From: Eleginops maclovinus
Taxonomy: Eukaryota; Chordata; Actinopteri; Perciformes; Eleginopidae
DNA: 64,000 nucleotides
Assembly: GCF_036324505.1 (NCBI RefSeq)
Contig: NC_086368.1
Coordinates: forward strand, 310,001-374,000
Reading direction: 5' to 3'
Shown here: positions 3,583 to 34,137 of the stretch, piece after piece
How the letters are laid out: the number at the start of each line of letters is the position of its first letter
How positions within the stretch are numbered: position 1 is the stretch's first letter
Notes under the pieces: model-generated
Database searches by the model: none
The model's input: only the letters and a program-made list of their open reading frames with translations
Told to the model about the DNA's origin: nothing
Translations under genes and position numbers: made by a program

Positions 3583-6500
3583 ATGATGGCGATGGCGGTG
3601 ACAACTGGAGTTCAAGAGCAGCTTCCACCAAATTCGGTGAAATCGTTAATAATATACCCTTTTGCGAGACGGACGACGGAGGAAAAACTTCTCGTTAAGG
3701 AGCTGGGACCCGACAAGCCTGAAATCAGCATTTCCCAGCAAATCAAGCTGAAAGATAAATCTTACAAACGGAGTTTTTGTCGGAGCTGGTTCAACCGTAA
3801 GACGTGGCTGGCAGGTTGTGGAGCAGCCAATGCACTTTTCTGTTTCCCCTGTATCCTCTTCAGAAGTGACAAATGTGATTCGACTTGGACAAAGACTGGA
3901 CTAACTGACTTAAAACACCTCTCTGAACGGATCAAGAAGCATGATCGATCCAAAGTTCACATGGAAAACTGCGTAAAGCTAGCTGTGTTCGGAAAGATTA
4001 GCATAGCAACGCAGCTCGATGATGGGCACCGCATCGCTGTAAGAAGGCACAATGAAGAGGTAGATAAAAACCGCAATATTTTATCTAAGATCATCGATTG
4101 TGTACATTTTTGTGGTGCTTTTGAATTAGCAATGCGGGGACATGATGAAAGGGATTCCTCAGACAACGCCGGAATATTCAGAGGTTTAGTCAACCTAATG
4201 GCATCCATTGATCGGGACTTGAGGGAGCACCTTGAAAATGCGTCCGTAAAGGCACCTCGAAGACCGTTCAGAACGAGCTCTTGGACTGTATGCTGGCAGT
4301 TCTAAGAGAAAAGATCGTGGATGAAGTGAAGACAGCTGAGTTTTTAGCTATCCAAGCGGATGAAACTACCGACATTTCCACACACTGTCAGCTAGTCCTG
4401 GTCCTAAGATACATCGATGGACGCAACAACATACAGGAGCGCTTCTATGAATTCATCAAGCTACCCAACAGCTGTGCGGATTCAATAGCCGGTGCCTTAT
4501 TGGAGAGCCTGCACAGCATCCTTCCTGAGGGACAAAAAAATAAGTTGATCGCCCAGGCATATGATGGGGCAGCGGTAATGAGGGGTGCCACTGGAGGAGT
4601 GCAGCGAAAGGTACAGGGCATCTATGCAAACGCTCACTACATTCACTGTTATGCCCATCAGTTAAACCTGGTAATGCAGCAGGTGACCTCCCACATCCCT
4701 CAGATCAGTCACTTTTTCACCGACATGGGGGGATTTGCTTCTTTTTTCTCAAAATCGAGCAAGAGAACGGCAGTACTAGATGAGCTGGTGGCGCACCGAC
4801 TTCCAAGTGCATCCTCAACACGTTGGAACTTCAACAGTCGTGCAGTCAACACAGTCTATTAGCACAAGAATGATCTGGTGAAGTGTTTTCAGACCATCCG
4901 GAACAGTGAAGCATTTGATGGCCAAACGAAGAGAGAGGCTGGAGGCTATGTGAGAATGCTGGAAGATGAAGCTTTCTGTTTTTTCCTAGCCTTGTTCCAC
5001 AAGATCATGCCACATGTAGACATGCTGTATAATCAGCTCCAGAAGAGAAACATCGATGCTGTCTACATCGCAGGAATCACCCAGGCATTCATGAACCGCA
5101 TGCAGGCTATCAGGTATGTTAAATGCATTATTATGTAGCATAGCCTAATTGTTCATTCTCTGCATATATTATGTGTAGCCTTAAATGCTTATATGTCATC
5201 TTATTCAAATAATTAATTTATTTGTGAAGTTTAGATGAAATATAATTGCCAGTAATTATAACAACCTTGGGTTTGGTTAATATATCCCTAACCAGTTTTC
5301 TTATGCATTGGATCAGGGAGGCTGTTCCTAATCTGGCTGAGGATGAGGAGTACAGGGGACCTGTTCAGGATCCACCCACAAAGAAACGGAGAACATTGGG
5401 AGAAGACACACAGCACCATTTGGCACTAGAGGTAAGCACTTGCTTACACACACACACACACACACACAGAGGAACAGACACAGAGAGGAACAGACACACA
5501 GACACACAGAGAGGAACAGACACACAGACACACAGAGAGGAACAGACACACAGACACACAGAGCAACAGACACACAGACACACAGAGAGGAACAGACACA
5601 CAGACACACAGAGAGGAACATACACACAGAGAGGAACAGACACAAAGAGACACACAGACACACAGAGAGGAACAGAGACACACAGACACACAGAGAGGAA
5701 CAGACACACAGAGACACACAGAGACACAGAGACACACAGAGAGGAACAGACACACAGAGAGGAACAGACACACAGAGAGGAACAGAGACACACAGACACA
5801 CAGAGAGGAACAGAGACACACAGAGAGACACACAGAGAGGAACAGACACACAGAGAGACACAGAGAGGAACAGAGACACAGAGAGACACACAGACACACA
5901 GACACACAGAGAGGAACAGACACACAGACACACAGAGAGGAACAGACACACAGACACACAGAGAGGAACAGACACACAGACACACAGAGAGGAACAGACA
6001 CACAGACACACAGAGAGGAACAGACACACAGACACACAGAGAGGAACAGACACACAGAGAGGAACAGAGACATTATCAAATCTAATGAATGCTCGCCACT
6101 TGATATAGTAGTCCAGACTCAAATGTATCTTGTCATTTGACGATATCTATGAATAATTACAGTTAACCATTTTGGTTTATTACACAATATAGGCTAGCTA
6201 TTCAGAACATTGATTGTAGTGAGACATGTGAAGACCTAATTCTTTCCCTTTTTTAAAATTGTATATTATCGCATAGGTATGTGACACCATCATGAGCCAA
6301 GCACCTCATCAGCGCCACACTCTTGCAAGGAGACTTGTTCCAACAACACAGCAGAAAGTTCCCAGATTCAGCACTGGAAACCACGGTGGAAGCCTATCCC
6401 TCATTGGACAAGGCCAGACTTAAAACAGAACTGTCCCTGATCTACGAGAATGAGGAGTTCCAGAGTTGCAAAGGTGCACTGGCTCTCTATCAGGTTTTGA

Positions 6501-6778
6501 TGGAAAACAACCTTGGAGAAACATTCACTGAAACTGTAAGACTTCTCAACATCATCATCACAACACCAATGACAACATCAGAGTCTGAGAGGTGCTTCTC
6601 TACCTTAAAGAGGATAAAAACTTTCCTAAGGAACACTATGTCACAAGATCGGCTCAACGCTCTGGCTATGCTCTCCATAGAAAAGAAAATGACAAAAGAC
6701 ATTCCTGATTTCAACACCAGGGTCATTGAAAAATTTGCCTCCCAAAAACAAAGACGAGCGAAATTCTTGTACAAATAA
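3583..6778 (+). pseudogene. hAT transposase (ZMYM1-like, TTF zinc finger), broken
   Basis: Three exons are inferred: 3583-5113, 5317-5431 and 6277-6778. The donors (CAG|GTATGT, GAG|GTAAGC) and acceptors keep phase. Domains in order are a TTF-type zinc finger (FCFPCILF, about 3838-3861), a DUF4371-like region, the RNase H-like core with ADETTD (about 4357-4374), YDGAAVMRG and HCYAHQLNLV, and the C-terminal hAT dimerisation segment (TTSESERCFSTLKRIKTF, about 6574-6627). Lesions are a frameshift near 4250, a TAG at 4860-4862 in an otherwise continuous frame, and a frameshift near 6300 at the start of exon 3. The relation to ZMYM1-type proteins is recalled family knowledge. The product is not functional. 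Confidence 0.85.
5441..6068. repeat. Minisatellite in an intron of hAT-A
   Basis: The array is built from variants of a unit like GACACACAGAGAGGAACA, with stretches of plain CA. It fills the second intron of the hAT-A transposase. Both strands give long open frames of HTQRNR or CVSVPL type residues, which are repeat artefacts. Confidence 0.95.
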
Positions 6779-6781
6779 AAC

Positions 6782-8015
6782 CTAGAAAGAGAGAGACAAA
6801 CACGCACACAAAGAGAGGAACAGACACACAGAGGAACAGAGACACAGATGAACAGAGACACACAGAGGAACAGAGACACACAGAGGAACAGAGAGGAACA
6901 GAGACACAGAGGAACAGACACACAGAGGAACAGACACACAGAGGAACAGAGACACAGAGAGGAACAGACACACTCAGAGGAACAGAGACACACAGGAACA
7001 GAGAGGAACAGACACACAGAGGAACAGAGAGGAACAGAGACACAGAGGAACAGACACACAGAGGAACAGACACACAGAGGAACAGAGACACAGAGAGGAA
7101 CAGACACACTCAGAGGAACAGAGACACACAGGAACAGAGAGGAACAGACACACAGAGGAACAGAGACACACAGGAACAGAGAGGAACAGACACACAGAGG
7201 AACAGAGAGGAACAGAGACACAGAGGAACAGACACACAGAGGAACAGACACACAGAGAAACAGAGACACAGAGAGGAACAGACACACTCAGAGGAACAGA
7301 GACACACAGGAACAGAGAGGAACAGACACACAGAGGAACAGAGACACACAGGAACAGAGAGGAACAGACACACAGAGGAACAGACACACAGAGGAACAGA
7401 GACACACAGGAACAGAGAGGAACAGACACACAGAGGAACAGAGACACACAGGAACAGAGAGGAACAGACACACAGAGGAACAGAGAGGAACAGAGACACA
7501 GAGGAACAGAGACACAGAGGAACAGACACACAGAGGAACAGACACACACAGAGGAACAGAGACACACAGAGGAACAGAGACACACAGAGGAACATACACA
7601 CAGAGGAACAGACACACACAGAGGAACAGACACACTCAGAGGAACAGACACACACAGGAACAGAGACACAGAGAGGAACAGACACACAGAGGAACAGACA
7701 CACAGAGGAACAGACACACAGAGGAACAGAGGAACAGAGACACAGAGGAACAGACACACAGAGGAACAGACACACAGAGGAACAGAGAGGAACAGAGACA
7801 CAGAGGAACAGACACACAGAGGAACAGAGACACAGAGAGGAACAGAGAGGAACAGAGACACAGAGGAACAGAGACACAGAGAGGAACAGACACACAGAGG
7901 AACAGACACACTCAGAGGAACAGACAGGAACAAACACACAGAGGAACAGACAGAGAGGAACAGACACACAGAGGAACAGAGAGGAACATACACACAGAGA
8001 GGAACAGGCACAGAG
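6782..8015. repeat. Minisatellite after the hAT-A transposase stop
   Basis: About 1.2 kb of units like GACACACAGAGGAACA with higher-order blocks (GAGGAACAGAGAGGAACAGA) starts a few bases after the transposase stop codon. The motif is nearly the same as that of the array at 5441-6068, on the other side of the last exon. The long open frames within it carry no coding signal beyond the repeat. Confidence 0.95.
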
Positions 8016-8588
8016 AGTGTCTTTTATGTTTATTTTACATTCAATGGGCAATATGTAATAATATTATAGTATGTAATTGTAATATAGTTGTGGAGAATGC
8101 TTTGTTGTTTCTCTCAGGCTGTGACATGCAATGACAACTGTATGGCACTGATGCTGTTTTCTCCAAGTAAATGCACTTTTCCTTGAGAGAGGGTATTAAA
8201 ATAATCTGTTTATGTAAAAAAAATTGAAAATAACTTGGTTCTAAATTCTTTGTATATGTTACATTTTAATAGGAAAGTTCTGTTTCATTCTCTCTTCTCA
8301 ACCCACACTCATTCACTCACTCACTGTTGATTTGTATAGATTCAGCTGAAATCATACCCTTGTTGTTAATTTATCCCTTGATTGTATTGTATAGTATTTG
8401 ATAGCATAAAGTCTAATATAGCTGTAAATTGTTACTTTTTCTGTGAAGCTGGAAACTGTGAAATTAAATTATTATTGTGGAACCGTAGTCATTTTCCGAC
8501 TGTTCATTTGAATGCTTATGCTAGATTAGGCAGGGAAATCTGTTGGCACACTAGCCCCACCAAGATTTTTTTTCACCAGCCGCCACTG
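8016..8588 (+). other. 3' untranslated and terminal part of hAT-A
   Basis: AT-rich sequence with no supported gene, ending in the right terminal inverted repeat at 8576-8588. Confidence 0.6.
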
Positions 8589-9900: not shown

Positions 9901-12389
9901 ATGCCACTTACAAGCAAGGAAAAAGTGGCTCGCCACAGAGCGCAAGTGAACGCAGATCCTGCTGCTAAAGCAATTTACCTGGCAAAAAGACGGGCAAGGT
10001 AGTGCACACGCAACAGCATGCACACACACACATTCGGACACAGGCATGCACGCACACACACGCACACACACATACAGGCACGCACACACACAAATACACA
10101 CACGCACATTTTTCATGTGAAGAATAAAGTCAGTGATGTAGATAGGCTGTGGAAATGAGAGGAGTGAGAGGATGATTTATTATTCTAGATATAAAAGGCT
10201 AATTGTTTTATTTTTACATTGTATTTATAGCTATCAAAGGAGGAAGGGAGAGGGAAAGATTGCGAACACCCCAGTAGCTGAGCTCTCCAAACAGAATCAG
10301 GAGAAGGTGAGAAAAAGGTGGAAGCAGTACCAGAGACAGTATAGGGAGAACAAAAGGGTACTTATTGATGTTCTAAACCTAACTCCCCCATCGATGAACA
10401 CATCAGGAGATGACCAGCATGTTGGCCCTCTGGAACCCATAGTTAACCTTCCAGATCATGACTATGTGCAGCCAAATGTAGAGATACCACAGGCATCCTC
10501 AACCCCTTTAAAGGCAGTACAGAGAAGAAGCAGACAAGAAAGTGAGGCGCTTAAGAATAGTGAAAAGCTCAGGTCTGAACTCCGCCGAATTAAGAGAGAA
10601 CTTAAGACAGCAAATTCAAAGACACAAAGGCTACGAAGGAAACTGGACAAGCAAAAGAAAGCAAAAGATCAGGAAGTCAGAGAGAGGAAAAAACAGAGGG
10701 ACAGAAAGAAAAGTTCAGAGGAGAAAAGGGAGCAAGTGGTGAGCTTTCTTCGCAGAGAGGAGAATAGCCGCATGTTGTCTGGCAAAAAGGACACTGTGTC
10801 AAAAAACAACCTCAAACAACAAAGGAGAGTACTACTTCACTCCCTTAAAGACATCCATGCCAGCTACAATGGAACGGTCTTGAAACACTACAGACTGTCG
10901 TACAGACAGTTTGTGAGATACTGTCCGTTTTACATCACTCCAGCCAAAGATTCGGACAGGAATTCATGTGCATGCATTGATCATGAAAATTTCAAGCTCA
11001 TTGTGGAAAAATTGTACCAGAGAGGCATTCTTCAGACACACAGCATTTCAGATCTGCTGGCTGGTATTGCATGTGATACATCCAGCAAACAGTGTATGTA
11101 TCGTTTGTGTGTAAAATGCTGCTTCAATGAGGTGGAATTTGAGGGCCCTCTGGAAGAAGACACTCTAACTTGGCAGCAGTGGTCGAGGATCACCAAAAAA
11201 GAGGAGGGAAAAACATACACCAACTTTGCCAAGGTGACACAGACTGGGAAGACTGCTGACCTTCTTGCTCTTCTCAACGAGAAGCTTGACTCTCTGGCCA
11301 AACACCAGTTCAACTGGATCCACCAAGTCAAAGCCCTCAGAGAAAAGAAAGAAGCACTACCAGATGATGAAATCTGCATCCATGTAGATTTCTCAGAAAA
11401 CTACGGCTGCAAATTGAATACTGAGATTCAGGCTTTCCATTTTGGTGGCAGCCGCAAGCAGGCCACCATCCATACCTGTGTGGTATACACAGCACAAACA
11501 TCTTACTCATATGCCACCATCTCTGCCTCGCTCCGCCACGATGAGCGTGCTGTGTGGGCACACCTGGAGCCTGTGCTGAAGGATGCCATCATGAAGTGCA
11601 AATCACCACCTTCTGCACTTCATATAATAAGTGATGGGCCTGTCAACCAGTACAGGAACAGGAAAAACTTTTATTTATTGAGTACAGTGCCTTTTCTTTT
11701 TGGTTTTAAGAACGTGTCCTGGAATTTCAGTGAAAAGGCCCATGGAAAGGGCGCCCCTGAAGGCGTTGGCGGGGCCGTAAAGCGGCTTGCTGATGCAGCA
11801 GTCCTGAGGGGGAAGGATTTGCAGACTCCAGAGCATGTCTTCAACTTCCTGAAGGATGAGTCCAGTGTTCGCTGCTACTGGATATCAGAAGAAGAAATCC
11901 ATATATGATGAAAAAGTCCCGGCCTTCATTCCAGCTGTAAAAGGCACACTCAAGATACATCAAGTGACCTGTGAAGAGCCAGCTGTCATTCAGTACCGGG
12001 ACATTTCTTGCTTTTGCGAAAGACCCAATGTCTGCAAGTGTCATGGGCCAACTACAGTCGACTTCCGGGATCCACCAGCCACCACTTCAACACCTGACAG
12101 CGTGGAGGATCAGGAAAGTAGGCAAGGAAAGTTTGCTCTAGTTAGATACGAGGGCAAACCATTTGTGGGGCAAATCATTCAGGTGGTTGGGGATGAAGTT
12201 GAGGTAAGCTGCATGCAACAGCTAGCCGAGAAAAATGTCTTCACCTGGCCTCATCCACCTGACATCTTGTTTTATTACGAGTCTGATGTTCTCCACATTA
12301 TTTCTGAGCCAGAACCTGTGAACTCACGTCATTCCAAACTAACAGAAGATGCCTGGAAACAATTCCAAGCAAACAACTTGAAAGGTTAA
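9901..12389 (+). pseudogene. TE-X protein, likely transposase, one frameshift
   Basis: Exon 1 is 9901-9998 (starts MPLTSKEKVARHRAQV). It is joined by a GT-AG intron in phase to exon 2 from 10231. The N-terminal third is very basic and probably coiled coil (about 10500-10750). The core carries HVDFSENYGC, LHIISDGPVNQYRNRKNF and HGKGAPEGVGGAVKRL, with 81 residues between the aspartates of the first two motifs. A C-terminal segment has a cysteine cluster (CFCERPNVCKC). A single-base shift near 11885-11905 ends the main frame at 11908; the rest continues in another frame to 12389. I recall similar proteins as uncharacterised transposon products in animals. Conserved D, D and E/D suggest a DDE-type nuclease; this is inference and I do not name a superfamily. 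Confidence 0.65.
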
Positions 12390-13570: not shown

Positions 13571-13997
13571 TTTGTCATTAATATGGTAGGCTACTTCCAA
13601 GTCTAACAAACGTATTGAAAGCCTGTAGTCTTAGATAAGACATAAGACAGAATATTAATGTTTCGTTTTAATTCTTTGCTGTCGCAATAACAACTAGTGC
13701 TAGTGGCTAAACTGACGTGAGTTAGCTGACAACAAGCTAGGCTAACTTTTCTGCTAGCCTGTTGACGTGGTTGCCGTCTAAAAGACACATTATCTAGACA
13801 TAATTTTAAATAAATCCAGGGCACACGTAATTATAATTGGGAATAGGCAACATTTAATATACATTCAGTAGATCATGTCAAAATCATCAAATGGAAGTTT
13901 ACCCCATGACCATTCATTAAAAGATGCTGTTGACGGAATTAGCATGAACTTTACTGACTGAATGCGTAGCTAAACATCAGTGGTCAATAACAAGAAG
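13571..13997. other. Unassigned sequence left of the two-gene transposon
   Basis: AT-rich, no supported gene. By position it should be the intron or 3' half of hAT-B, which reads leftward from 18612, but I recognise no hAT exon here. It ends with the left target duplication AAGAAG at 13992-13997. Confidence 0.4.
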
Positions 13998-14234
13998 AAT
14001 CCGTGTATCATTCGTTCATTTGTTTTTCCGATTTCAAAACCAAAACCAGAAATCGGATAACGGTTCGTTTTCTCGTTTTTCCGATTTCAATACCAAAACC
14101 AGAAATCGGATAACGGTTCGTTTTCTCGTTTTTCCGATTTCAAAACCAAAACCAGAAATCGGATTACGGTTCGTTTTCTCGTTTTTCGTTTTCTCGTTTT
14201 CTCGTTTTTTCGATTATGCACCCCCAAACGGAAA
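13998..14234 (+). repeat. Left terminal inverted repeat of the two-gene transposon
   Basis: Begins AATCCGTGTATCATTCG and contains about three tandem units of roughly 53 bp. Each unit holds a small hairpin (CCGATTTC ... GAAATCGG). It matches 18363-18599 in inverted orientation over all 237 bp by eye, and both arms give the same translation. Confidence 0.93.
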
Positions 14235-14249
14235 ATGGAAAATGAAACA

Positions 14250-14280
14250 ATCGGATAACAAATGAACGAATGATACACGG
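14250..14280 (-). repeat. Extra inverted copy of the transposon terminus
   Basis: CAAATGAACGAATGATACAC followed by GGATT, the inverse of the terminal sequence at 13998, lies inside the left arm only. Together with the true end it makes a 283-bp unit with its own inverted ends, resembling a MITE. The right arm lacks the corresponding block (about 14235-14311). Confidence 0.85.
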
Positions 14281-14311
14281 ATTCTTGCGCAGGGCTGGCA
14301 GGGCTCGTTTG

Positions 14312-14342
14312 GTTGTCAGGGAAACCAAACAATCGCGAGCCA
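14312..14342 (+). repeat. Inner inverted repeat block, left
   Basis: GTTGTCAGGGAAACC followed after a short spacer by TCGCGAGCCA. Its inverse lies at 18331-18357. This second shared block lies inside the terminal repeats and could be a further transposase-binding site. Confidence 0.75.
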
Positions 14343-14613
14343 CAGGGTAAAAGATCATCGGTGCCTACTGTATGAAGCAGCTTGTAACATGGGGGTTTTG
14401 AGCATTGGATCTAAATAAATACGTCATATGTTTAATCCTTACTTTAGCAATCTCCATCGTAGCCTATTCGCGTAGGTCTGTCATTGTTATGTGCATTGTT
14501 GTTGTTGGCTGATATCAGGCTAGCTTACTATGAAAAACCCATGAAAGTCCATATAGGCATACAAGAGTAGACCTAGGAAATCACCTTATCACCACTGTTG
14601 GGCAAGTTACTCA
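14343..14613 (+). other. Internal non-coding part of the two-gene transposon
   Basis: I see no supported gene. It should contain the promoter and perhaps a first exon of the plus-strand gene, which I cannot place. Confidence 0.4.
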
Positions 14614-16153
14614 AAAACTACAACAGTGAGACCAGAGGACCTCAAGACCGAAAAAATAGCTGTCATCTTTCAAGTAAGTAGCCTATATCACACAATCCTG
14701 TCTAATTTCACTATTTAATTTTTATTTCACTATTTTATTCATGCATGGGGTAAGATTAGCCACCTGAAAAACATATTTAAAAAGAGAATATTATTTTAAC
14801 CATGAAAGTTTATCAATTAGTTTTTGCATTAATAGTAACATGACACTTTGAAATTTGGTATGATGTGAAGATTTGAAACAAATTACGCCTTTATCACTCA
14901 AATTACGCCTTTATGTAAAAAGTGGCTCAACTTACCCCGGTCTCCCCTATATGTAACAAATCATAATCTCATCTCTTATCACACAGGTGCAGAAGGACAC
15001 TATTTATTTAACAGATGACCACAACATCGCCATCTTCCCAGAGGAGAACGGGCACTTCATCTCTGTGGATCTGGTGGACCGGGGCCACTACGAGGTGCAT
15101 GGGGATGCCTCGGCATCAGCAGCAGCAGCACCACCACCACCACCTGCAACAGCAACAGCAGCAGCAGCGGACCAACGTCCACGATATTTGTATTCTTGTG
15201 CTGTCACTGTAGGATCCAACTTCTGGAAGCAGAATTCTAGGAAGACTTTTGCTGTTCCTGAGATTCAGCTGGGACAGCTTGGCAAAAGGAGGCGGCTAAG
15301 GTAGTCTTTTGTCATAACATCTAAATAGTTAAATGCTGTATTTCAATTTAATTTAGTCTTTTAAGGCGAGAGGGCACACCTAGATTCGGATTAATAGGCA
15401 GGACTTTGAAACTTCTCCAGTTATTAGGGGCATAAAAACCTAATTTTTTTTGTATGGCAAGTTTTCTATTTTGAAAGAAGACATGTAAATGGATCAAATT
15501 CTGAAACAATCTCAAAATCACCCACATTTGAGATAAATGGCATTCGGGGGTGTGCCCTCTCGCCTTAAAGGGGACTGTAAATTCCCAGTCATTTGTTTAT
15601 ATTTTCCATTATTCAATAATAAATAATACATTGTAAATTCAAAATGTTTTTTCAGTCGTAGAGAAGACACTGGTCTTCAAGACGTGGTGGCCGAGATAGA
15701 GGAGGTGATCGAGGCAGCCCAGGGCCTGAAGGAGGTCACCAAGAGCATCAAGGAGGTAACAGAAGGGACTGGCAAAGCAACTCTACTGTGCCTACAAGAG
15801 GGAGAAGTGAATGCCCTGAAGACTGTCTTTGGCTGCCTTGTGTGCCCAGGTTAGTACAGTTTTACTTGTAGTTGATTATCAAGTTGACTTCCAAGTCAAG
15901 AAGGTAAACTAAACACGTAGGCCTAAGGAAAAACAATTAAGGTCTACCAAAATGTTATGTTTTTTAATCTACAGGTCCTGTGGAAAAACCCATTTTTTCA
16001 TCTTGCTGCAGAAGCATCATCGGATGCAGGTCGTGCATTCAACAGTGGGAACACAGCCACGACTACTGCCCGAAGTGTCGGTGTCAAGACAGGGAGACAA
16101 ATGAAGTGGATGGGTTGGACGAGGCCCTGGCAGTGCTGAGGAAGCTTTTTTAA
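14614..16153 (+). CDS. Transposon-encoded protein with C-terminal RING-like zinc finger
   Basis: Exons inferred: about 14614-14673 (start uncertain), 14987-15300, 15656-15849 and 15975-16153. GT-AG borders keep one frame through to a TAA. The N-terminal part is not recognised (VIFQ at the first junction, then QKDTIYLTDDHNIAIFPEENG). An Ala/Pro-rich low-complexity stretch lies at about 15110-15165. A charged helix follows (DVVAEIEEVIEAAQGLKEV). The C-terminus holds CLVC, SCC, CRSC, a histidine and CPKC in RING/U-box spacing. RING fingers usually recruit E2 ubiquitin-conjugating enzymes, so a ubiquitin ligase role is possible but inferred. It is tail to tail with the transposase. Nothing in the coding exons looks broken. 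The first exon and start codon are not established. Confidence 0.7.
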
Positions 16154-16212
16154 AATAAATAAATAATTCAAAACGATGTTGATTTTAACACGATTCATAT
16201 GTATTTATTTAT
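16154..16212. terminator. Shared 3' region with polyadenylation signals on both strands
   Basis: Only 59 bp separate the stop codons of the two transposon genes. AATAAA occurs on the plus strand at 16154-16163, directly after the RING gene stop. On the minus strand it occurs at 16204-16213, directly after the transposase stop. Cleavage the usual 10-30 bases downstream would make the two transcripts meet or overlap. Confidence 0.75.
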
Positions 16213-18293
16213 TTACAATGTTGCATGCATGTCAGAGACATTAATTAGATGGAGCAGTGCCTCCTGAAACATGGTGTAGTCCTGGTTAACGACCGTATCG
16301 AAGAGATGAGACATGTCCGGGTACCTCTCCCCAAACGCTTGCTCTGCTAGACCTCTCTGTTCATCGGATGAAAACGGGTCAGAGCCAAAGGCTGAAACCC
16401 AAGTCAGAGATGATCCCATCTCCTCCTCGTACATATGTGCTGCCTCAGCAGCATTGGGCAGCAGCTCTACAGGACAGCTGGCTGGACACCTAGCAGCCGC
16501 AAGTTGGTTTGGTATCCCTCTGCCTAAAATGAGTAAAAAAAAGTTTTACATTTTATACAATTTTTTCCCTTTTTTTTGGTCAGTGAAAAACTGCTATTAC
16601 ACTTGTAAGCTATTACACTTTACCTGGTATCCTATGTGCATTCCAGGACTGCACAACTCGAGCAAGTCCTATTGCACTGACTTGACAGGCCAAGTTTGAC
16701 ACACAGAATTTAGTTGTGTTGTCCTGCATGTCCACTAGTTCCTGGTCCTGTAGGTGGATGAGGGCCTGTTTGATGGGATAGTTGACCCGGTTGTTGACCT
16801 CTGGCCAAATTCTTTCCACTCGAAGATTCTGTTTAAATCACACACACAAAAAAACGTTTTGTATATGACATTTCAGACATTTTTTAACCACCCAAAAGTA
16901 ATAAAAGGCTGAAGACAGATCCCAGTAGTAGTAGGCTAGTAGTAGTAGTAGTAGCCTAGTACTACTAGAAAAAAATACCTTTGAAGAGGTTGTCTGCAGG
17001 TAAGGGAGTCTATTGGTGTTGTGTCGATGTTCAGCCAACTTCTCCTGCATGTATAACGTCAAATAAAACTCCTTGCCGTGATCAACTCTAATCTGGTCCC
17101 ACATTCCGTTGTTGACAACTGCTTTCCTGTATTTAAAAAAGGAAGGAAAGAAAGAAAGAAATGAAAAAGAGCAGTGTAAATTGGCATTAATTAATTAATG
17201 ACATTAATGAATGGATTAATGAATCATTTGTAGGCTATTACTTGTGTAGTACATTTGCTTTTGAGCACACATGTAACACTGATGTAGACATAGAGGATTT
17301 CCAACTTGCCTGTAAACTTCCTCATAGATGATCAGATTGTTCTTCACGGGCATCGTGAATTGAGCCATAATTTTACTGCTGTACCCATCTACAGCCAACA
17401 CATGGGTCACTCCGAACATACCCAACTTTTCGTTTTGGTCCATGTGTAATTTATGGCCCGTGTAGTCTGCGTGATAAGGGACTGGGTTCAGGTTTCTTGC
17501 TCCCTAAAAGAAGTACAATCCAATCAATGAAAAATAGGCCTACAATAACATCAACAGAAACATTCACGTTATTTGCAAATATGATTACTATGTAGGCCTA
17601 GTAAACACACAACATTAAGTTAACATTCATGATGTCAGCAATTTTAGAGCTTATTTTTTGCGCACTCGTTAGGCCTACCTCACGACGTAGCTCATTGTAG
17701 GGCTGATGGACGTTTCGTAGGATCCTTCCCACTCGCGGTTCACCCACTTTCACCCCCACAGATGACAGGTACCCTGTCATAAATTTCCGTCCGTACGTTG
17801 GACCGGTCTATGGACAGTAAATAAACACACAACTAAACAAACAAACAAATACCCTAATAATAAAGTCATAAAGGATTACAAGTGTGTAGCCTAGCCTACA
17901 TTCAATTATTAGGCCGAGGCTAGGCTATTTCGGCTACGGTTTAGCCCAGACGGCAAAATATGTTTGGCCCGATCTATTTCCTATCTGGGGCTCATCTGGC
18001 CCTGAATCGTTTTCGGTATTCATAAGGCTATGGCAATAATATTCAAACAAATGCCTAGTTCTAGATCTAGGCTTACTCACCTTTTGAATAGATGTCAGGA
18101 CAGCTTCTTCCAGCTCTTGGTCTGTGATGTGCCCCTTCCGTCTCAGCCCAACGTCGCCACAGAATCTCCTCACCGACATCTCCGAGGACCCCTTAATTCC
18201 CATACTCTTCAATGTCTCAGACATTTCGGCGTGAGTTTTCCCCGACAGAAAGAGTTGATTTATCATCTCGTAGTGAGACTCCAAATTAGCCAT
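16213..18293 (-). CDS. Integrase-like DDE transposase, six exons, intact
   Basis: Exons on the minus strand: 18293-18081, 17807-17679, 17503-17310, 17126-16979, 16828-16624 and 16523-16213. They splice in phase into 399 residues with no stop. The third intron has a GC donor (CAG|GCAAGT); the others are GT-AG. The start is [20 protein letters not shown], a helix-turn-helix-like N-terminus. The catalytic core resembles a retroviral integrase: D136 in HMDQNEK, D194 in RVDHGKEF and E233 in [15 protein letters not shown], spaced 57 and 38 residues. It should cut and join the element ends in the nucleus. The superfamily is not certain; IS3EU is my best guess. Confidence 0.85.
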
Positions 18294-18330
18294 GTTTCCT
18301 TACAGATCAGTTGTGGCATGAGTCAGTTGT

Positions 18331-18357
18331 TGGCTCGCGATCGGTTTCCCTGACAAC
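18331..18357 (-). repeat. Inner inverted repeat block, right
   Basis: TGGCTCGCGATCGGTTTCCC then TGACAAC, the inverse of 14312-14342 with a shorter spacer. It lies about 35 bp upstream of the transposase start codon, so it could overlap its promoter. Confidence 0.75.
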
Positions 18358-18362
18358 TAACA

Positions 18363-18599
18363 TTTCCGTTTGGGGGTGCATAATCGAAAAAACGAGAAAA
18401 CGAGAAAACGAAAAACGAGAAAACGAACCGTAATCCGATTTCTGGTTTTGGTTTTGAAATCGGAAAAACGAGAAAACGAACCGTTATCCGATTTCTGGTT
18501 TTGGTATTGAAATCGGAAAAACGAGAAAACGAACCGTTATCCGATTTCTGGTTTTGGTTTTGAAATCGGAAAAACAAATGAACGAATGATACACGGATT
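18363..18599 (-). repeat. Right terminal inverted repeat of the two-gene transposon
   Basis: Exact inverse of 13998-14234 by eye, ending CACGGATT before the target duplication AAGAAG at 18600-18605. Confidence 0.93.
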
Positions 18600-18611
18600 A
18601 AGAAGGCTTAC

Positions 18612-18984
18612 CTTCTTCATGTTGGCGGCGTTGTCCCTCATAACAACATGCACCTTGTCATTATCGATGTCCCACTTGGCGAGCATCTCTTCTATAGCAT
18701 TCCGGATACGCGTTGAAGTGTGAGAGCCACGCAGCTCACTTGCATGTAGCACTACGTTGTGCAAAGTAAAACTGGAGTCTATCCAGTGGGCGGTTAGACT
18801 GAGGAGCGACATCGGGGCTACATCTGAACTCCACAGGTCTGTGGTGAGGGCGATTGAGGTAGCCTCCTTTAGGTGCTGCTGCACTTGTTCACGCGCCTTG
18901 GTGTGCAGGGCTGGGATGCCTTTTTCAGCAATGTAATGGCGGGATGGCATCCCATAGCGCGGCTCCAAATAATTTATTAGACGA
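18612..18984 (-). pseudogene. hAT-B transposase, second half of split exon
   Basis: Reads ALTTDLWSSD, SLLSLTAHWID and VVMRDNAANMKK, the core of a BED-finger hAT transposase with its first catalytic aspartate region. It ends at a splice donor (AAG|GTAAGC). Six bases past the exon end the two-gene transposon begins its duplication. On the right it is cut at 18984 by the LTR of BEL-2. The missing upstream coding sequence resumes in the same frame at 35851. The downstream exons are not found, so the gene is dead. Confidence 0.88.
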
Positions 18985-19376
18985 TGTAAATAACCCCATG
19001 AAGGTATAATTCATTTTTAGTTTAATTTGTACTTATTTGCATAATTGTGAACACGGAATTAGTTTAAGAATTTTATACAGGCCTTATGCCATTCATTTTC
19101 CTATAGACTTTTATTTTGAAAGGTAAAATGTTAATCATACGTCACTTTGTTAGCGTGTAACTTTTTAGTACAGTGTATGATCTGGTCACGAACGGATGTA
19201 CGTGTGTAAAATAGAAGGATTTTATAGTTTTAATGGACCCGTATGAGGCCAAACAGTTCTTACGGTGGTGATAGTTTGAAAGTATAAGGAATGTAGTATT
19301 GAACAAGAGAAAATAAAACAGTAAATTTGAACCAGCAGTAAAGACTCAAACCAGTTATATACGGGGATCCGTTACA
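18985..19376 (+). repeat. 5' LTR of BEL-2
   Basis: 392 bp from TGTAAATAACC to GATCCGTTACA. By eye it matches the 3' LTR at 35459-35850 in length and sequence. TG...CA ends are present. Confidence 0.95.
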
Positions 19377-20798: not shown

Positions 20799-23700
20799 TC
20801 AGTTCTTATGAAGAAGCAAAACCGTTTCCGTCACTGGTCTAAGGTAAGTCTTTGGTTGGCCTTGGTTTGCTGTCTTTAGTTCCACCTTACGGACTCTTCC
20901 ATCTGTTCCTGGAATAGCCTTTGTGACCACTGCCAAAGGCCAGTTGTTGCGGGCAGCTTGGTTGTCTTTGAGGAGGACGATGTCACCGTCTTGCAGGTTC
21001 TGGTGGGACCTTGTCCATTTCTTGCGGCTTTGTAAGGTTGACAGGTACACTTGTCTCCAACGGTTCCAGAACAAGTTGGATAATGCTTGTACTTGTCTCC
21101 ACTGCTTCGTGAGGAGGTCTCTGCCTGTGAAGTCACCTGGAGGTGGTGGGACGCCCACTTTCTGCGTTAACAGCATCGATGGTGTGAGGATGAATGGATT
21201 CTCGGGATCATTCGATACTGGAACTAGTGGTCTTGCGTTCAGAATTGCTGTCACTTCTGCCATTAGTGTGCACAGAACATCATGAGTTAGGCGAGTGCTG
21301 TGTTCGCGGAGCGTCGAATCCAGGATTCTTCGGGCTAACCCAATGAGGCGCTCCCATGAACCCCCCATGTGTGAGGCATGAGGCGGGTTAAACACCCAGG
21401 AGCATCCTTGATGTTGCAGATACCTCTGCACTGTGCTGTCTGGTTGATCTGCACTCAGCCCAAGTTCTTTGCAAGCCCCAATGAAATTTGTGCCGCAGTC
21501 TGACCTCAGTTGTTTGGCTGGTCCTCTTATGGCAAAGAAACGCCTCAATGCGTTTATGCAGCTTGAGGTGTCCATTGAGGTAATCACCTCGATGTGAACT
21601 GCCCTGGAGCTCATGCAGCAGAATAGTATGGCCCAGCACTTGCTCTGAGGTTGTGTCCCTCTGGTGCGTCTGGTGGAGACGTGCCAGGGTCCGAAGACAT
21701 CCAGTCCCACATACGTGAAGGGAGGGCAGGTTGTAAGGCGTTCTGTGGGCAAATCTGCCATTTTTTGTTCCTGCATCCGTCCTCTAAGTCTGCGACAGGT
21801 GATGCACTTGTGAATAGTTGAGTTAACGAGCCGCTTGCCTCCCAGGATCCAGAGCCCAGCAGCTCGTACAGCACCTTCTGTTAACTGGCGACCCTGATGC
21901 TTTACTTGGGCATGGTGGTATCTGGTGAGAAGCAAGGACACATGGTGTTCTTTTGGGAGAATGACAGGGTTCTTTTGTTCAATGGACACATCTGCATTCT
22001 TCAGTCTGCCTCCAAGGCAGAGGAGGTCATCCTGTAAGACTGGGTTGAGAGAGCGTAGGCAGCTGCTTAACGGAACTTGCTTTCCTCTCTCCAGAGCTTC
22101 AAATTCCTTCACAAAGGTATTCCTCTGAACAGCTCTGATGATGACTTCTCTTGCTTGGGAAAGCTCATCCACTGAACGAGGTAAGTCACAGTGATGCCAT
22201 CCCTTGCACTTGCCTATCGGAGTGCTGAAGGATCTCCCTATATGAATAAGGAGTGCGATGGCTCGTTGGAGAGTGTCGAATGTGGAGAACCTTTCAAAGC
22301 GCTCTGTGCTGAGAACTTTCCCTTGTAGATCAGTAATGTAGCTCTTCACCGCTGGACGGACCTCTGCATCTGACTCTGGTGAGACTATGCTGAATGACTG
22401 AGGTATGACTGAGGCAGGGTCTGGCTGAACAGAGGGCTTGCGCAGGAAGGTTGGTCCGTTGAACCACATTGTCTTTGTGAGGTGTGCTGCTGGGACCGAC
22501 CGCGACGCCAGGTCAGCCGGATTGTCTTCGGTGTTCACGTAGTGCCATTGTTCAGGGATGGTAGACTGGCGTATACGCTGGACCCGATTATGGACGTACA
22601 CATAGAACCGTCTGGACTGGTTGTAAATGTATCCAAGGACAACTTTGCTATCAGTGTAGAACTTTGTGGCATCCAGCTTTAGATCCAGTTCATCCTGAAT
22701 CAGCTCAGCTATTTCCACTGCTAAGACTGCTGCACACAGTTCAAGTCTGGGAATGGTCGGGTCTGATTGAGGGGCAAGTTTGGCTTTTGCCATGACAAAT
22801 CCCACGTCTACTGTGTCTTCTTGGATGGCTTTCAGGTAGGCTACGGCACCAATGGCCTTCACAGATGCATCGCTAAAGACGTGGAGTTCTACTCGCTCAG
22901 CCTTGGCTGGGCAGATGCCTGTGTACATCCTAGGTATATGAAAGTGCCTCAAGTCTTGAAGCGAGTTTCTCCAAGCTTCCCACTTGCCTAACTTATCTTC
23001 AGGCAATGGGGTGTCCCACTCCGATGTCTCAGAATTCAACTCTCTGAGAAGGCCCCTGCCTTGGATCGTAACTGGAGCCAGAAACCCTAAAGGGTCGAAG
23101 ACACTGTTCACCATTGAAAGAACCCCTCGACGGGTGAATGGTTTGGTGTCGGTTGACACAGAGAAGGTGAATGTGTCACTTGCTATTTCCCACAGGAGCC
23201 CCAAGCTGCGTTGGGTGGGTGACTCATCTCCACTGAGGTCTACATCCCTTTTGGCTTGTACGCAGTCCTCACTTGGGAAGGCTTCCAAGACAGCCTGACT
23301 GTTTGAGACAAATTTGTGGAGCCTCAAGTTAGACTCAGCAAGTGAGGCTTGAGTCCTATGAAGCAGCCCAATAGCCTCTGCATCAGTTGGGACAGAACAG
23401 AGGCCGTCATCAACATAAAAGTGCCGTTCGACGAAGTTGACTGTGTCTGTTCCATATTTTTCTGCGCCATCTCTGATGGCTCTTCTGAGCCCATAGATCG
23501 ACACTGCAGGAGATGGGCTGTTCCCGAAAACATGAACTTTCATTCTGTAGTCAATGACCTCGTTGGCTACGTTGTTGTCCTTGAACCATAAGAATCGCAG
23601 GTAGTTTCTGTGCTTTTCGTCCACAAGGAAGCAGTAAAACATTTGTTGAATGTCTGCCATCACAGCGACCTTGTCCTTTCGGAACCGCATGAGCACTCCT

Positions 23701-26582
23701 AGAAGGGTGTTGTTCAGATCCGGTCCAGTCAAGAGCACGTTATTCAAGGAGATCCCAGACTGTTGGGCACTTGAATCAAACACTACCCTGATTTGATCGG
23801 GTTTCTGTGGGTGATACACGGCAAAGCTTGGTAAATACCAGCACTCTTCTTCTCTTAGCTCTGGTGCCACCTCAGCATGGTTGTTTTTCAGCAGTTTACC
23901 CATAAATTCCACGTATTGCTGTTGCATTTCTGGCTTTCTTTTGAATTGGCGTTGGAGTGAGCCAAACCGCTTGAGTGCTTGCTCGCGGTTGTTGGGAAGC
24001 TGTTGCCTAGGTAGTCTGAACGGCAATGGAGCAACCCAGCTGTGTGAATCGTTTCTGTAGACGTCTTTGTCCATCATTTTGAGGAAAGTTTCATCTTCGA
24101 TTGAAGGTGCTAGCTTATTGTCCTGTTCCGTGCAGTCAAACACATTTTGACCCAGACTGTGTTCCTTAGCTCTGGGTGGTAAGGCACTGTTTCCTGGCAG
24201 TCTGTCGTGAAGTTCCTCTTTAATGTGCAAAAGGCTTGTGCATGGCTGGAAGAGTGAGGGCCGATGACAGTCGACCATGGCCGTCCGGAAGGAACTGACG
24301 TTCGGCTTGTGTGTGCTCCCTAGACAGACTTCTCCGACCAGCACCCAGCCTAAGTCAAGGCGTTGTGCGAAGGGTGCATTGGCGGGGCCATTTATTTGTT
24401 CCCTTACTTTGTGTGCTCTGATTGCGTCTCTCCCTAGCAGCAGGAGGATTTCAGCAGTGGGGTCCAGCTTTGGGATGTGTTCTGCTACCTTTGACAGGTG
24501 AGGCTGATGCAGAGCGGCATTTGGTGTGGGAATTTCAGACCGATTATCAGGTAAGTCATTACACTCAGTGAGTGGTGGTAAGGGAATCCTAACTTTTCCA
24601 TTGAGGGACTCCACGATAAAATCTGATGCCCTTCTGCCGAAAGTGTCTACTATACCAGAACATGTTTTCAGTTGGTAAGGATATGGCTTAGTGTGGATGT
24701 CAAACTTGTCAAAGAAACTGGACTTGGCCAACGATCGGTTGCTTTGGTCGTCTAACACGACGTAGGCCTTGATGGCTTCCTCTGGGTGGTCTTTCTGGTA
24801 CACTCTTGCCAGGCATACCTTGGAGCATGACCGTCCGACTTGTCCTGTACCACATACTGCTGTGCAGCTTGCGCTAACCTCACTGGTGTCGTTTACCTCT
24901 TCTCCCTCCCCGCCATGCTGTGGCGAGGTCAGAGGAGTCGTGAGGTGCGGTGCTGGTCCTGGGTGCATAGCTGAGATATGTCGGGTGCTGTCACACTCAA
25001 AACACTTAACAATTGTAGTGCAGTCCTTTGCCATATGGTTGGTTGAGCTACAGCACTTAAAGCAGATTCCGTTTTCTTTCAGAAATACCTTTCTGTCATC
25101 AAGAGTTTCGGCTCTGAAGGCTTTGCACTTCTTCAGTGGGTGGGGTTTTGCATGTATTGGGCAGATCTTACTCGGATCACTAGAGACATTTGACTCTGTG
25201 GGAGTGACATTGATCTTGTGAACTGCAATGGGTTTCTTGAAGGTTTTAGGAAAGGCACCTTCAGCTCTGACAGATGACATTGTGGTGGTATTTAAAAAGG
25301 CAAAGCTAGGGTCATTTCTCTTCTTGGCCTCATAGCATATGAGTTTCGTGAAGTAATCAAACGGTGGGAACCGTCCTCCATTTGCTTCTTTATACTTAGA
25401 ACCGGCCGAGATCCATTTTTCCTGGAGTCCATAAGGCAGCTTGGTCACTATGGGTTCAATTCCGCGTGTCGTGTCCAGGTAGGACAGGCCTGGTAAGTAG
25501 CCATCTTCTTTAGCACACTGCACTTCCATAAGCAGGTCAGCTAGCTCTCGTAGCTTCAGATTTTCCTTGGCTGAGACTCTGGGAAATGCATCCAGTCGGG
25601 TAAAGAGGGCCTTTTCAATCACCTCTGGGGCTGCATAACACTCCTGAAGACGTTCCCAAGCTTTCCCCAGTGCTATTTGTGGACTTGCTATGTGCACTGC
25701 ACGGAGACGTTTCACCTGGTTGCTGGACTCTTTTCCAAGCCATCGCGTCATCAAGTCCAATTCCTCAGTGGCTGTGAGACCAAGTCCTTGAGTGGCATTT
25801 TTGTATGATGACAGCCAAGCACGATAATTTTCAGGTTTATCATCAAACTCGTACAAACTTGTATTCACTAGGTCACGCCGAGCTAAATATTGTGCCAGGT
25901 GTTCAGTTGCAGGCATACTTTGAGTATTTGTTGGCTGGGGGTTGAAGGATGGAGCTCCAATATTCAAGTCACTGATCTGCGAGGTAAGAGTCTTGGGAAT
26001 AACCCGCGGACCTTCTCGGGTAAATGGATTCTGGCTGACTGACTCTTTGGCTGCTGGTGGCGCATAGTCTAAGTCATAGTCTGTAAAATCCACATTGTTT
26101 GTGCTGTCGTATGAAAAAACAGGCGGCTGATGGCGTGAAACAAAGGGGTTGTTCGGGCTATAACTGAGAGTGGCATAGGTAATTGGTTGAGTTGGTGGCG
26201 AACTAGCCTTCATGGCTGTTTGTTGGACGGAGTTAGTGGAATGGAAGTGAGTTTGGATGTATTCACTTGTCCGTTCAAGTTTGCTTTGTTCTGTTGAATT
26301 TGTTTCATCCAGCACAATATAATTGTTGCTTCCTGAAACTGCTGATTCCCAGACAGCTGCTACGGCTTCAGCTTCTGCTGCTTCACGGCAGATGGCTAGT
26401 GTTTCAGCCTCAGTCTCTTTTTTCACTTTTTCTATCCTAGCTTTGGCTTCTTGCTCAGCATATTCGGCACGCACTTTAGTAGCTGCTGCTTTTGCTCGTG
26501 CACGAAGTAAAGCATTGGTTGATGAGGCAGATGAATGAAAGCTGCTTCCACTTTTTCCTGATTTATTAGATGTAGTTTCCAT
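20799..26582 (-). CDS. BEL/Pao gag-pol polyprotein, 1927 residues
   Basis: One uninterrupted frame. A coiled-coil-rich start (to about residue 75) is followed by a DUF1759-type gag region (about 235-400) and a zinc knuckle (CFKCCSSTNHMAKDC, about 505). The Pao protease has VVLDDQSN near residue 610. Reverse transcriptase has YVDD near 1057. RNase H includes FSDAS and FYTDSKVVLG. The integrase zinc-binding part lies near 1560. The integrase core shows aspartates near 1629 and 1696 and a glutamate near 1742, followed by a DUF5641-type tail. All catalytic residues I can identify are present. It should make the proteins for reverse transcription and integration. Gag and pol are fused in one frame with no visible shift site. 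Confidence 0.95.
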   Translation of the reverse strand: METTSNKSGKSGSSFHSSASSTNALLRARAKAAATKVRAEYAEQEAKARIEKVKKETEAETLAICREAAEAEAVAAVWESAVSGSNNYIVLDETNSTEQSKLERTSEYIQTHFHSTNSVQQTAMKASSPPTQPITYATLSYSPNNPFVSRHQPPVFSYDSTNNVDFTDYDLDYAPPAAKESVSQNPFTREGPRVIPKTLTSQISDLNIGAPSFNPQPTNTQSMPATEHLAQYLARRDLVNTSLYEFDDKPENYRAWLSSYKNATQGLGLTATEELDLMTRWLGKESSNQVKRLRAVHIASPQIALGKAWERLQECYAAPEVIEKALFTRLDAFPRVSAKENLKLRELADLLMEVQCAKEDGYLPGLSYLDTTRGIEPIVTKLPYGLQEKWISAGSKYKEANGGRFPPFDYFTKLICYEAKKRNDPSFAFLNTTTMSSVRAEGAFPKTFKKPIAVHKINVTPTESNVSSDPSKICPIHAKPHPLKKCKAFRAETLDDRKVFLKENGICFKCCSSTNHMAKDCTTIVKCFECDSTRHISAMHPGPAPHLTTPLTSPQHGGEGEEVNDTSEVSASCTAVCGTGQVGRSCSKVCLARVYQKDHPEEAIKAYVVLDDQSNRSLAKSSFFDKFDIHTKPYPYQLKTCSGIVDTFGRRASDFIVESLNGKVRIPLPPLTECNDLPDNRSEIPTPNAALHQPHLSKVAEHIPKLDPTAEILLLLGRDAIRAHKVREQINGPANAPFAQRLDLGWVLVGEVCLGSTHKPNVSSFRTAMVDCHRPSLFQPCTSLLHIKEELHDRLPGNSALPPRAKEHSLGQNVFDCTEQDNKLAPSIEDETFLKMMDKDVYRNDSHSWVAPLPFRLPRQQLPNNREQALKRFGSLQRQFKRKPEMQQQYVEFMGKLLKNNHAEVAPELREEECWYLPSFAVYHPQKPDQIRVVFDSSAQQSGISLNNVLLTGPDLNNTLLGVLMRFRKDKVAVMADIQQMFYCFLVDEKHRNYLRFLWFKDNNVANEVIDYRMKVHVFGNSPSPAVSIYGLRRAIRDGAEKYGTDTVNFVERHFYVDDGLCSVPTDAEAIGLLHRTQASLAESNLRLHKFVSNSQAVLEAFPSEDCVQAKRDVDLSGDESPTQRSLGLLWEIASDTFTFSVSTDTKPFTRRGVLSMVNSVFDPLGFLAPVTIQGRGLLRELNSETSEWDTPLPEDKLGKWEAWRNSLQDLRHFHIPRMYTGICPAKAERVELHVFSDASVKAIGAVAYLKAIQEDTVDVGFVMAKAKLAPQSDPTIPRLELCAAVLAVEIAELIQDELDLKLDATKFYTDSKVVLGYIYNQSRRFYVYVHNRVQRIRQSTIPEQWHYVNTEDNPADLASRSVPAAHLTKTMWFNGPTFLRKPSVQPDPASVIPQSFSIVSPESDAEVRPAVKSYITDLQGKVLSTERFERFSTFDTLQRAIALLIHIGRSFSTPIGKCKGWHHCDLPRSVDELSQAREVIIRAVQRNTFVKEFEALERGKQVPLSSCLRSLNPVLQDDLLCLGGRLKNADVSIEQKNPVILPKEHHVSLLLTRYHHAQVKHQGRQLTEGAVRAAGLWILGGKRLVNSTIHKCITCRRLRGRMQEQKMADLPTERLTTCPPFTYVGLDVFGPWHVSTRRTRGTQPQSKCWAILFCCMSSRAVHIEVITSMDTSSCINALRRFFAIRGPAKQLRSDCGTNFIGACKELGLSADQPDSTVQRYLQHQGCSWVFNPPHASHMGGSWERLIGLARRILDSTLREHSTRLTHDVLCTLMAEVTAILNARPLVPVSNDPENPFILTPSMLLTQKVGVPPPPGDFTGRDLLTKQWRQVQALSNLFWNRWRQVYLSTLQSRKKWTRSHQNLQDGDIVLLKDNQAARNNWPLAVVTKAIPGTDGRVRKVELKTANQGQPKTYLRPVTETVLLLHKN

Positions 26583-26622
26583 CTTGACTCGTTATTCAAT
26601 GCTAACTTCTCAGTCTTTTCAC

Positions 26623-27144
26623 TGTGTTGTCTTCACTGCAGTGTAACAACTGAAGCTATCCAACAAGTTAAACTCTGATGCAATAACCAGGAGTCTGTGT
26701 CGTAGTTAACATTTCACTGTTGTTTACTGAAGATTCCAGCATTACATGGCAGAGTGAAAACTGCAACAAAACAAAGTTTGACATTTTTTAACATAAAGTT
26801 CAGCTTCACATGAAGTCTTATGAAATATCCTTGTAAATACATGTAAATAAAAACGATCTTTTAAGACTATTATTACCTTCTCTTTCAACTTTAAACTTAA
26901 CTTAATCTATCAATTATTTAACTTAACAATGAGTTTTACTTACGACTTTGCTTCTAGCATCTTTCACGGTCAGGAATTCTTAAGTATTAACTGTTTTCAA
27001 CAGATAGGAACTGAGTGGGAAGTAACTGATGACAAGGCAGGAAGTGGTAAGGAAGTTACAGGAAATTGTATCAAAGTAAAAGTTTGTATTCTTTCTCAAT
27101 GTGTCAAAATAAAAGTCAAAATATATCGCCCTAATGGCGACACA
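26623..27144 (-). repeat. 5' LTR of BEL-3
   Basis: Same 522-bp sequence as 20202-20723. The gag-pol start codon lies 40 bp beyond its inner end, so the leader is very short. I cannot identify the tRNA for the primer-binding site. Confidence 0.95.
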
Positions 27145-27149
27145 ATGAC

Positions 27150-28724
27150 TATGCGCGGTCCATTTATGGCTCCACTGCTTCAATACTGACTGGCAGTCAT
27201 CGTTCCACGCACTCAAGTGTTGCAGCCAAGCGAGCAGAAGCAGCGGCGGAGTTAGCTGCTAAGGAGGCTGAATATAAGGTGCTAATGGAAGAAAGGAAAC
27301 AGAAGGAAAAAATTTGTGTTTTAGAAGAAGAACACAGAAGGGAATTAGAAAAGCACAAGGCCGAATTAGAACAATTACGAGCTGAAAAAGACTTGAAAGC
27401 TGCCCACGCCAGACTTGAAGCATACAACAGAGAAGTGAAAGAGGAGTCTGATGCCCAGTCTTTTCAGTCATGTCATGATCCTATGCCACACAACTCTATT
27501 CCCCCTGCCATAACGCACCCTTACACGGCTGTCACTCCATCTCCTGCCATCGATGTATCCTGCCTAGCCCAAGCCGTTCAGGACAGCATTGCTATTAACA
27601 GACTTCCAATGCCAGAGCCCACAGTGTTTAATGGCAATCCAATTGACTTTGTTGAGTGGAAGGCTTCATTCACACCACTTATAGATAGAAAGAACATCCC
27701 CACTACCGATAAGCTGCACTACCTCAAGAGATATGTAGGTGGCTCAGCTCACAAATGCATAAAAGGGACTTTCTATCGTAGCGACAGTGAAGCTTACAGT
27801 GACGCATGGAACAAGCTCAATCAGAGGTACGGCCAGCCGTTTATCATTCAAAAGGCCTTTAGGGAAAAGTTATCCAACTGGTCAAAAATACAGTCTAAAG
27901 ATGCTGAAGGACTGAGAGATTTCTCAGATTTCTTAAATGCTTGTCTGCAGGCCATGCCCCATGTAAAAGGCTTAAACATCTTAAACGACTGTGAGGAAAA
28001 TCAGAAGTTGATGCGGAAACTGCCAGAGTGGATAGCCTCACGATGGAACCGGCAAGTGACAGCACGTCTCACGGAGGGAAAGGATTTCCCTAGCTTCAAG
28101 GACTTTGCCAAGTTCATGTCAGTGGAGGCCGAAACTGCCTGCAATCCAGTCACCTCTTTCCTCGCTCTCCATCCAGCAGAATCCTGTCAAGACAAGTGGA
28201 GCACAAGGGAAGGCAAAAGAAACAAAGCCAGTGCCTTCAACACACATACAGTGGTGGAAAATAATAAGCATACATCAACAAACGAAAAGGTCAAGCCCCC
28301 CTGCATGCTATGTCAGAATGTCAGTCACCAGCTTTGCAAATGTCCAGACTTCATGAAAAGAAAACTGGAATATAGAAGAGCGTACATCAAAGACAACAGA
28401 CTGTGTTATGGATGTCTAAAACCTGGTCACAGCGCAAAGGAGTGCAGGCACCGCCACACATGTGACTCATGCAAAAGACGACATCCCACATGTCTTCATG
28501 ATGACAACTACGGAAAAGGTCAAGACAAAGATTCAGCACAACGCAGTACAACGAACCCAACACCTGCTCTGTCCCTCAACGTCACCAGCCAAGGTCAGTC
28601 AGAAAACACCTCCATGATAGTGCCGGTGTGGGTGTCTAACGAAAAGAATCCATCCAGAGAAAAACTTGTGTACGCCTTGCTGGATACACAAAGTGACACA
28701 ACATTTAAGTTGTGTCACTTTGTG
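27150..28724 (+). pseudogene. BEL-2 gag, C-terminal part, and start of protease
   Basis: Continues the frame interrupted at 20201. It has a long charged coiled coil (about 27210-27440), a DUF1759-type gag region (about 27600-28130) and zinc knuckles (CMLCQNVSHQLCKC, CYGCLKPGHSAKEC, about 28303-28440). The aspartic protease starts with LLDTQSD near 28678. The frame ends in a stop at 28725-28727, inside a double fold-back rearrangement that replaced the sequence after the protease active site. Confidence 0.88.
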
Positions 28725-28756: not shown

Positions 28757-28757
28757 C

Positions 28758-34129: not shown

Positions 34130-34137
34130 GCTCAGAC

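Follow-up and report, generated by a model that had tools for sequence, protein, structure and literature searches.

Does the DNA element at positions 13998–18599 of a 64,000-nucleotide stretch of the Eleginops maclovinus genome carry an intact transposon with two genes, one for an integrase-like transposase and one for a RING-finger protein, as proposed in the initial annotation? The stretch (contig NC_086368.1, positions 310001–374000; G000:C20:310001-374000 in the 606-Mb, 27-contig genome) is referred to below as the window. The copy in the window is not intact, and we consider it probable that it is a recent copy, shortened by an internal deletion, of an integrase-type DNA transposon with two genes that have long been kept together.

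The proposed bounds of the element are exact. The hexanucleotide AAGAAG, taken as its target duplication, is read on both sides; the chance of such a 6-bp match, from the base composition, is ~2.7e-4. The terminal inverted repeats are perfect over 237 bp, as had been claimed: the left one is the exact reverse complement of the right one, and three units spaced 53 bp lie within each. An inverted copy of the outermost 27 bp is present further inside the left end, and most of the other copies scanned have such an inner copy inside one end. The features of the ends are as follows (duplications read from the sequence, the others from repeat analysis).

13992–13997, no strand: target-site duplication AAGAAG, left copy
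13998–14234, plus strand: left terminal inverted repeat, 237 bp, starting AATCCGTGTATC
14257–14283, minus strand: the outermost 27 bp repeated in inverted orientation, inside the left end only
18363–18599, minus strand: right terminal inverted repeat, complementary to the left one at all positions
18600–18605, no strand: target-site duplication AAGAAG, right copy

The insertion of the element interrupts a reading frame on the minus strand (18606–19010) at the point where it reads ...NMKK, just before a donor-like GTAAGC. This frame, which we take to be hAT-like, is 35% identical to another such frame at 31222–32121 of the window across ~120 residues.

The transposase had been described as a six-exon gene of 399 residues with D, D and E in place, and this description holds: the exons splice on the minus strand into an open frame that contains D136, D194 and E233 (DD38E spacing). 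Four of the introns are of the GT-AG type and one, after exon 3, is GC-AG. The exons, all by predicted splice, are listed below.

18081–18293, minus strand: transposase exon 1, with the ATG at 18293
17679–17807, minus strand: transposase exon 2, part of an HTH_21-like region
17310–17503, minus strand: transposase exon 3, with D136 and the GC donor
16979–17126, minus strand: transposase exon 4, with D194
16624–16828, minus strand: transposase exon 5, with E233
16213–16523, minus strand: transposase exon 6, with the stop codon

The protein is a member of the integrase-core (rva_4) DDE transposases, by its score to Pfam PF24764 (57.7 bits, above the gathering score of 26; E-value 1.7e-15) and by the D-D-E residues. 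The catalytic triad aligns in all four of the other rva_4 loci sampled from the same genome (the four may be related to one another). The match to HTH_21 (Pfam PF13276, 9e-4) is under the cut-off, and those to the NCBIfam models of IS481 (4.5e-6; 26.4 bits, cut-off 224) and IS3 (0.0057; 15.9 bits, cut-off 160) are far below. The Pfam scan gave no further match at E up to 1 and none to the retroviral HHCC domain. Genome-wide, at least 158 PF24764 matches are present, with scoring done for 150 of the 305 candidates, and many of these matches lie in long frames of a single exon; the four sampled loci (L033–L036) show no convincing RING match inside the 7.4–8 kb fetched.

The RING gene is located on the opposite strand, convergent and tail to tail with the transposase gene. 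Both genes were initially regarded as undamaged; this is correct for the transposase, but the RING gene is 5'-truncated and its frame has no start codon. A 7.24-kb copy (C19:2049225-2056468) has 2653 bp that are missing from the window copy between 14619 and 14623, and this deletion takes the first 13 RING codons, the start included, together with upstream DNA.

14619–14623, no strand: deletion junction with a 3-nucleotide filler at 14620–14622 (alignment to the 7.24-kb C19 copy)
14623–14673, plus strand: what is left of the truncated first RING coding exon, codons 14–30 (comparison with the C19 copy)
14987–15300, plus strand: RING exon (predicted splice)
15656–15849, plus strand: RING exon, ending just past CLVC (predicted splice)
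15975–16153, plus strand: last RING exon, CC..GCRSC..CPKC and the stop codon (predicted splice)

In the C19 copy, the RING start exon follows directly after a CAG acceptor and begins with MDTYVLFLREKRV, then TVRPEDL.... Upstream of this exon the deleted stretch also contains a GAG/GTGAGT donor, with a possible 5' exon recognized by eye. The start exon is present, along with the other RING exons, at 7 of 11 loci of the family to which the window copy belongs (family A) and was read letter by letter in four of them, so the window copy cannot be regarded as an intact two-gene element. The same deletion junction is found in four gene-bearing copies: those in the window, on C9 and on C10, and C12:10676782-10682542.

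The window copy could still make its RING protein from an unrecognised upstream start exon and thus be a working two-gene copy, and the frame is indeed open from 14623, with exons nearly identical to those of the other copies. This is very unlikely, as there is no Met in the remaining 245-residue frame, and the start exon common to family A and to a second, diverged family B (described below) was lost with the upstream DNA. Nor is there much to commend the reverse history, in which the 4.6-kb form is ancestral and the 7.24-kb form arose by gain of a 2.65-kb insertion. In its favour, the 4.6-kb copies are compact and differ little from one another, but part of the extra stretch (623–1900 of the C19 copy) also occurs in short derivatives, and the stretch contains the start exon that family B has too. 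The latter contradicts an ancestral 4.6-kb form, which was rejected as scarcely credible.

The search of the genome with the terminal end listed 60 matches; as scoring covered 40 of the 111 first-look candidates, the copy number is a lower bound. Full-length end matches define 23 copies (a tandem pair on C12 is counted once), all of which were examined, while loci L043–L045 were excluded from the duplication count because the sequence retrieved for them did not show both ends. An exact 6-bp duplication flanks 20 of the 23 copies. In two others, the C23 copy and the C12 pair, the 6-bp duplication is displaced by an extra ATT, and no 6-bp duplication is found for the remaining C3 copy, which has a damaged left end. 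Copies with the same ends fall into size classes of 4.6 kb, 7.24 kb and ~2.5–2.9 kb, plus copies enlarged by other insertions. The 7.24-kb form is the fullest uninterrupted family member read. The most frequent class among the copies examined (n = 16, one enlarged by an insert) is that of ~2.5–2.9 kb, which is without the RING gene and retains only the first part of the transposase gene.

The interior of the window copy (3740 bp) differs from six other gene-bearing copies by 1–4 mismatches and 0–4 gap bases (99.8–99.95% identity). Eight gene-bearing copies, the window copy among them, were read exon by exon. Both genes are open in two of the eight (C19 and C16); in the window, C10 and C12 copies the transposase is open and the RING start is missing; in the C9 copy the transposase frame is broken and the RING start is missing; breaks (C4) or damage (C6) affect both genes in the other two. 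The near-identical interiors, the exact duplications and the open gene-bearing copies point to recent movement of the family.

Three loci show additional features. At L015 (C12:10673300-10683100), two family-A elements lie 3 bp apart; GCGCTG flanks them jointly, with an extra ATT on the right, and the pair may have moved together as a composite. The same extra ATT is seen at L018 (C23). At L010/L011 (C16:5385843-5396795), a 3.7-kb insert, which starts with CAGTGGCGGC, ends with GCCGCCACTG and is flanked by the short repeat TTCTGAG, sits within the putative 5' exon of the RING gene, in a copy whose two genes are otherwise open.

The genome search with the 258-residue RING protein, in which all 65 first-look candidates were scored, gave 51 exon-level matches. 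These correspond to 11 family-A loci, 3 family-B loci, 1 decayed locus and 1 weak match on C2 (36% identity, E 0.003), the best one apart from the 15 transposon-type loci. At 11 of 11 family-A loci the RING exons have transposase exons next to them in convergent order (with exon 1 not detected at C11, the sequence retrieved for C7 starting past exon 1, and the last exon broken at C6), and the same layout is found at all three family-B loci; these counts start from RING matches, and transposases of the same lineage with no RING neighbour could be missed. The initial annotation expected copies with matching ends and 6-bp duplications that carry both genes together, and the exact duplications and the pairing at every family-A locus bear this out. 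Neither of the outcomes named as fatal to it was found in this genome: the pair occurs at 11 A and 3 B loci and not only in the window copy, and its presence in the diverged family B speaks against a RING host gene captured once.

The longest family-B element (C10:21616183-21631031, 14.85 kb) has inverted repeats 96% identical over 264 bp and the duplication GTGGGG, and a shorter, deleted copy, also on C10, has CTTTTC; 6-bp duplications are thus present at two of the three B copies, those with both ends in view. Among the three, the start, second and last RING exons occur together only in the longest. In the three B copies the transposase codons that could be aligned include 2, 1 and 1 stops, and the copies therefore look older.

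Between family A and the longest B element, 168 of 310 transposase codons are identical (54%), with proportions of synonymous (pS) and nonsynonymous (pN) differences of 0.84 and 0.29 and a bootstrap pN/pS of 0.29–0.40. For the RING gene 76 of 153 codons are identical (50%; pS 0.88, pN 0.33, bootstrap pN/pS 0.29–0.46). With the other two B copies the transposase shows 55–56% identity and similar ratios; the RING gene shows 44%, with wider bootstrap ranges of pN/pS (0.33–0.58 for 85 codons and 0.35–0.75 for 54). A pS above 0.75 means that the synonymous sites are saturated between A and B, and for this reason no ratio of nonsynonymous to synonymous substitution rates (dN/dS) is quoted for them; moreover, only codons alignable by tblastn were compared, which favours conserved stretches. 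Among the B copies dN/dS is 0.38–0.62 for the transposase and 0.17–0.55 for the RING gene, from few changes, which fits the expectation of decay after insertion. Within these limits both genes show the signature of long constraint, and it is indicated at the sequence level that they stayed together under it since the two families diverged.

These comparisons bear on the possibility that the RING gene derives from one capture of a host gene and is carried as a passenger that plays no part in transposition. Loss of the RING start has not kept copies from spreading, and the commonest class (n = 16) lacks the RING gene and most of the transposase gene, as would be expected of a passenger. Two families that are ~50% identical nevertheless both have the gene, and agree in its order and orientation, and apart from the 15 transposon-type loci nothing matches better than the distant sequence on C2. 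Saturated synonymous sites combined with constrained protein sites make the RING gene look like a long-standing transposon gene rather than a single capture, and we regard the passenger explanation as improbable.

The RING protein is predicted, after splicing, to have 258 residues, with a RING-like zinc finger near its end. The domain in family A reads CLVC-x11-CC-x4-GCxxC-x10-CxxC, and in family B it is the same with the exons joined by reading; for the decayed third lineage the part recovered starts at CC. Seven Cys positions of the C3HC4 pattern are filled, by reading, in both families. A single-sequence search gave 27 PDB sequences at E up to 1, mostly RING proteins (best PCGF5, 2.3e-4), but two USP15 entries, a thiazole synthase and a designed coiled coil were also among them. 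A profile from the three lineages retrieved 20 PDB sequences within an E of 0.05, with PCGF5 in first place (1.5e-6); we take all of them to be RING proteins from the molecule name or from what is known of the protein, one being labelled only COMMD3. For the first 73 residues there was no Pfam match and no PDB match better than E 0.65, and scans of viral contigs with both proteins confirmed no relative.

In the explanation that we favour, the transposase would bind the repeated units of the long ends and join these to staggered cuts 6 bp apart by integrase-type strand transfer, and deleted copies would be mobilised in trans by proteins from complete copies. The RING protein would help by acting on the transposase or on a host repressor, most likely in the manner of an E3 or a scaffold. 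Besides the limits of the codon comparison, several points weigh against this reading. The splicing of both genes is predicted; among the 11 family-A loci are some with damage or missing parts; and the 13.3 kb retrieved for the decayed RING remnant (in C20:1522300-1535600) gave no match to the transposase. Copies without the RING start have multiplied, four of them with a common deletion, so the RING protein may be dispensable or act in trans. The His ligand of the RING is absent, with an adjacent CC there in three lineages, and the Pfam RING models are below cut-off; for these reasons we use the label RING-like, which is safe, and treat a role as ubiquitin ligase as putative. We offer only tentatively the broader idea, which we find rather unlikely, that this integrase-type lineage evolved a separate RING E3-type helper needed for transposition or for escape from host control, with the 4.6-kb form without RING start being a parasite of the complete form. 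As the genome contains two copies with both genes open, a helper role is directly testable.

Elsewhere in the window, long tandem repeats of the THTQRNR/THREEQ type (5246–8134) are open in several frames on both strands, and overlapping open reading frames of 588 and 178 residues (10142–12389, plus strand) are basic and rich in lysine and arginine near the start. A single open frame of 1930 residues (20799–26591, minus strand) is presumably a BEL/Pao-type retroelement polyprotein. A second similar polyprotein frame (27135–30800, plus strand) seems to resume at 34079–35323, and the stretch in between is, we assume, hAT-like.

Among known systems, IS3EU is the nearest named group, and the duplication length and transposase type suggest a way of working similar to that of IS3EU and GingerRoot. 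Shared features are the 6-bp duplications, seen here in most family-A copies and in B, and, from the accessible text on these groups, an integrase-like DDE transposase related to IS3/IS481 and without an HHCC domain. In the accessible parts of the sources, TET-positive fungal IS3EU families carry TET/JBP and alpha-kinase genes, the kinase opposite to the transposase (PMC10045372; PMC12730594), so IS3EU-type elements can carry other genes (PMC12730594). Complete IS3EU elements, however, are stated always to end in TA..TA (PMC10045372, section 3.3), occasionally TG..CA in GingerRoot, whereas the termini here are AATCCG..CGGATT at all 18 family-A copies tabulated and GGTCYG in family B (GGTGCG at one end of one copy); the element is therefore not filed as IS3EU. 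Also different is the RING gene, which goes unmentioned for IS3EU in the accessible parts of PMC10045372 and PMC12730594. The bacterial IS481/IS3 elements share an HTH_21-like region followed by an integrase core, by weak profile matches, but here there are introns, long ends and a second gene, and the scores are far below the family cut-offs.

RING domains are described, in the accessible text of the respective papers, in the long terminal repeat elements Isis-like and Pao_Cv1 (PMC3630058) and in a Phytophthora MULE (PMC6446971). Among the papers listed, we found no description of a separate RING gene in a transposon of this kind, which is weak evidence, as Repbase and most subscription journals lay outside the search. 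A parallel is that of RAG1 and Chapaev, where a RING finger, E3-active in RAG1, is likewise tied to a DDE transposase; as stated in 2015, in the accessible part of that paper, the RING and Chapa domains occur in no other known transposable elements (PMC4411706). Kinship with Chapaev/Transib (RAG) was rejected, given the separate genes on opposite strands and the restriction of the Pfam matches of the transposase to PF24764 and PF13276. In DNA transposons the RING has so far been discussed, in the accessible text, as a domain fused to Chapaev/RAG1 transposases (PMC4411706). It lies there inside the Transib/Chapaev transposase, whereas here it belongs to a separate, convergent gene beside an integrase-type transposase; if our reading is true, this long-kept RING-like gene would be a second, independent link of ubiquitin-type proteins to transposition.

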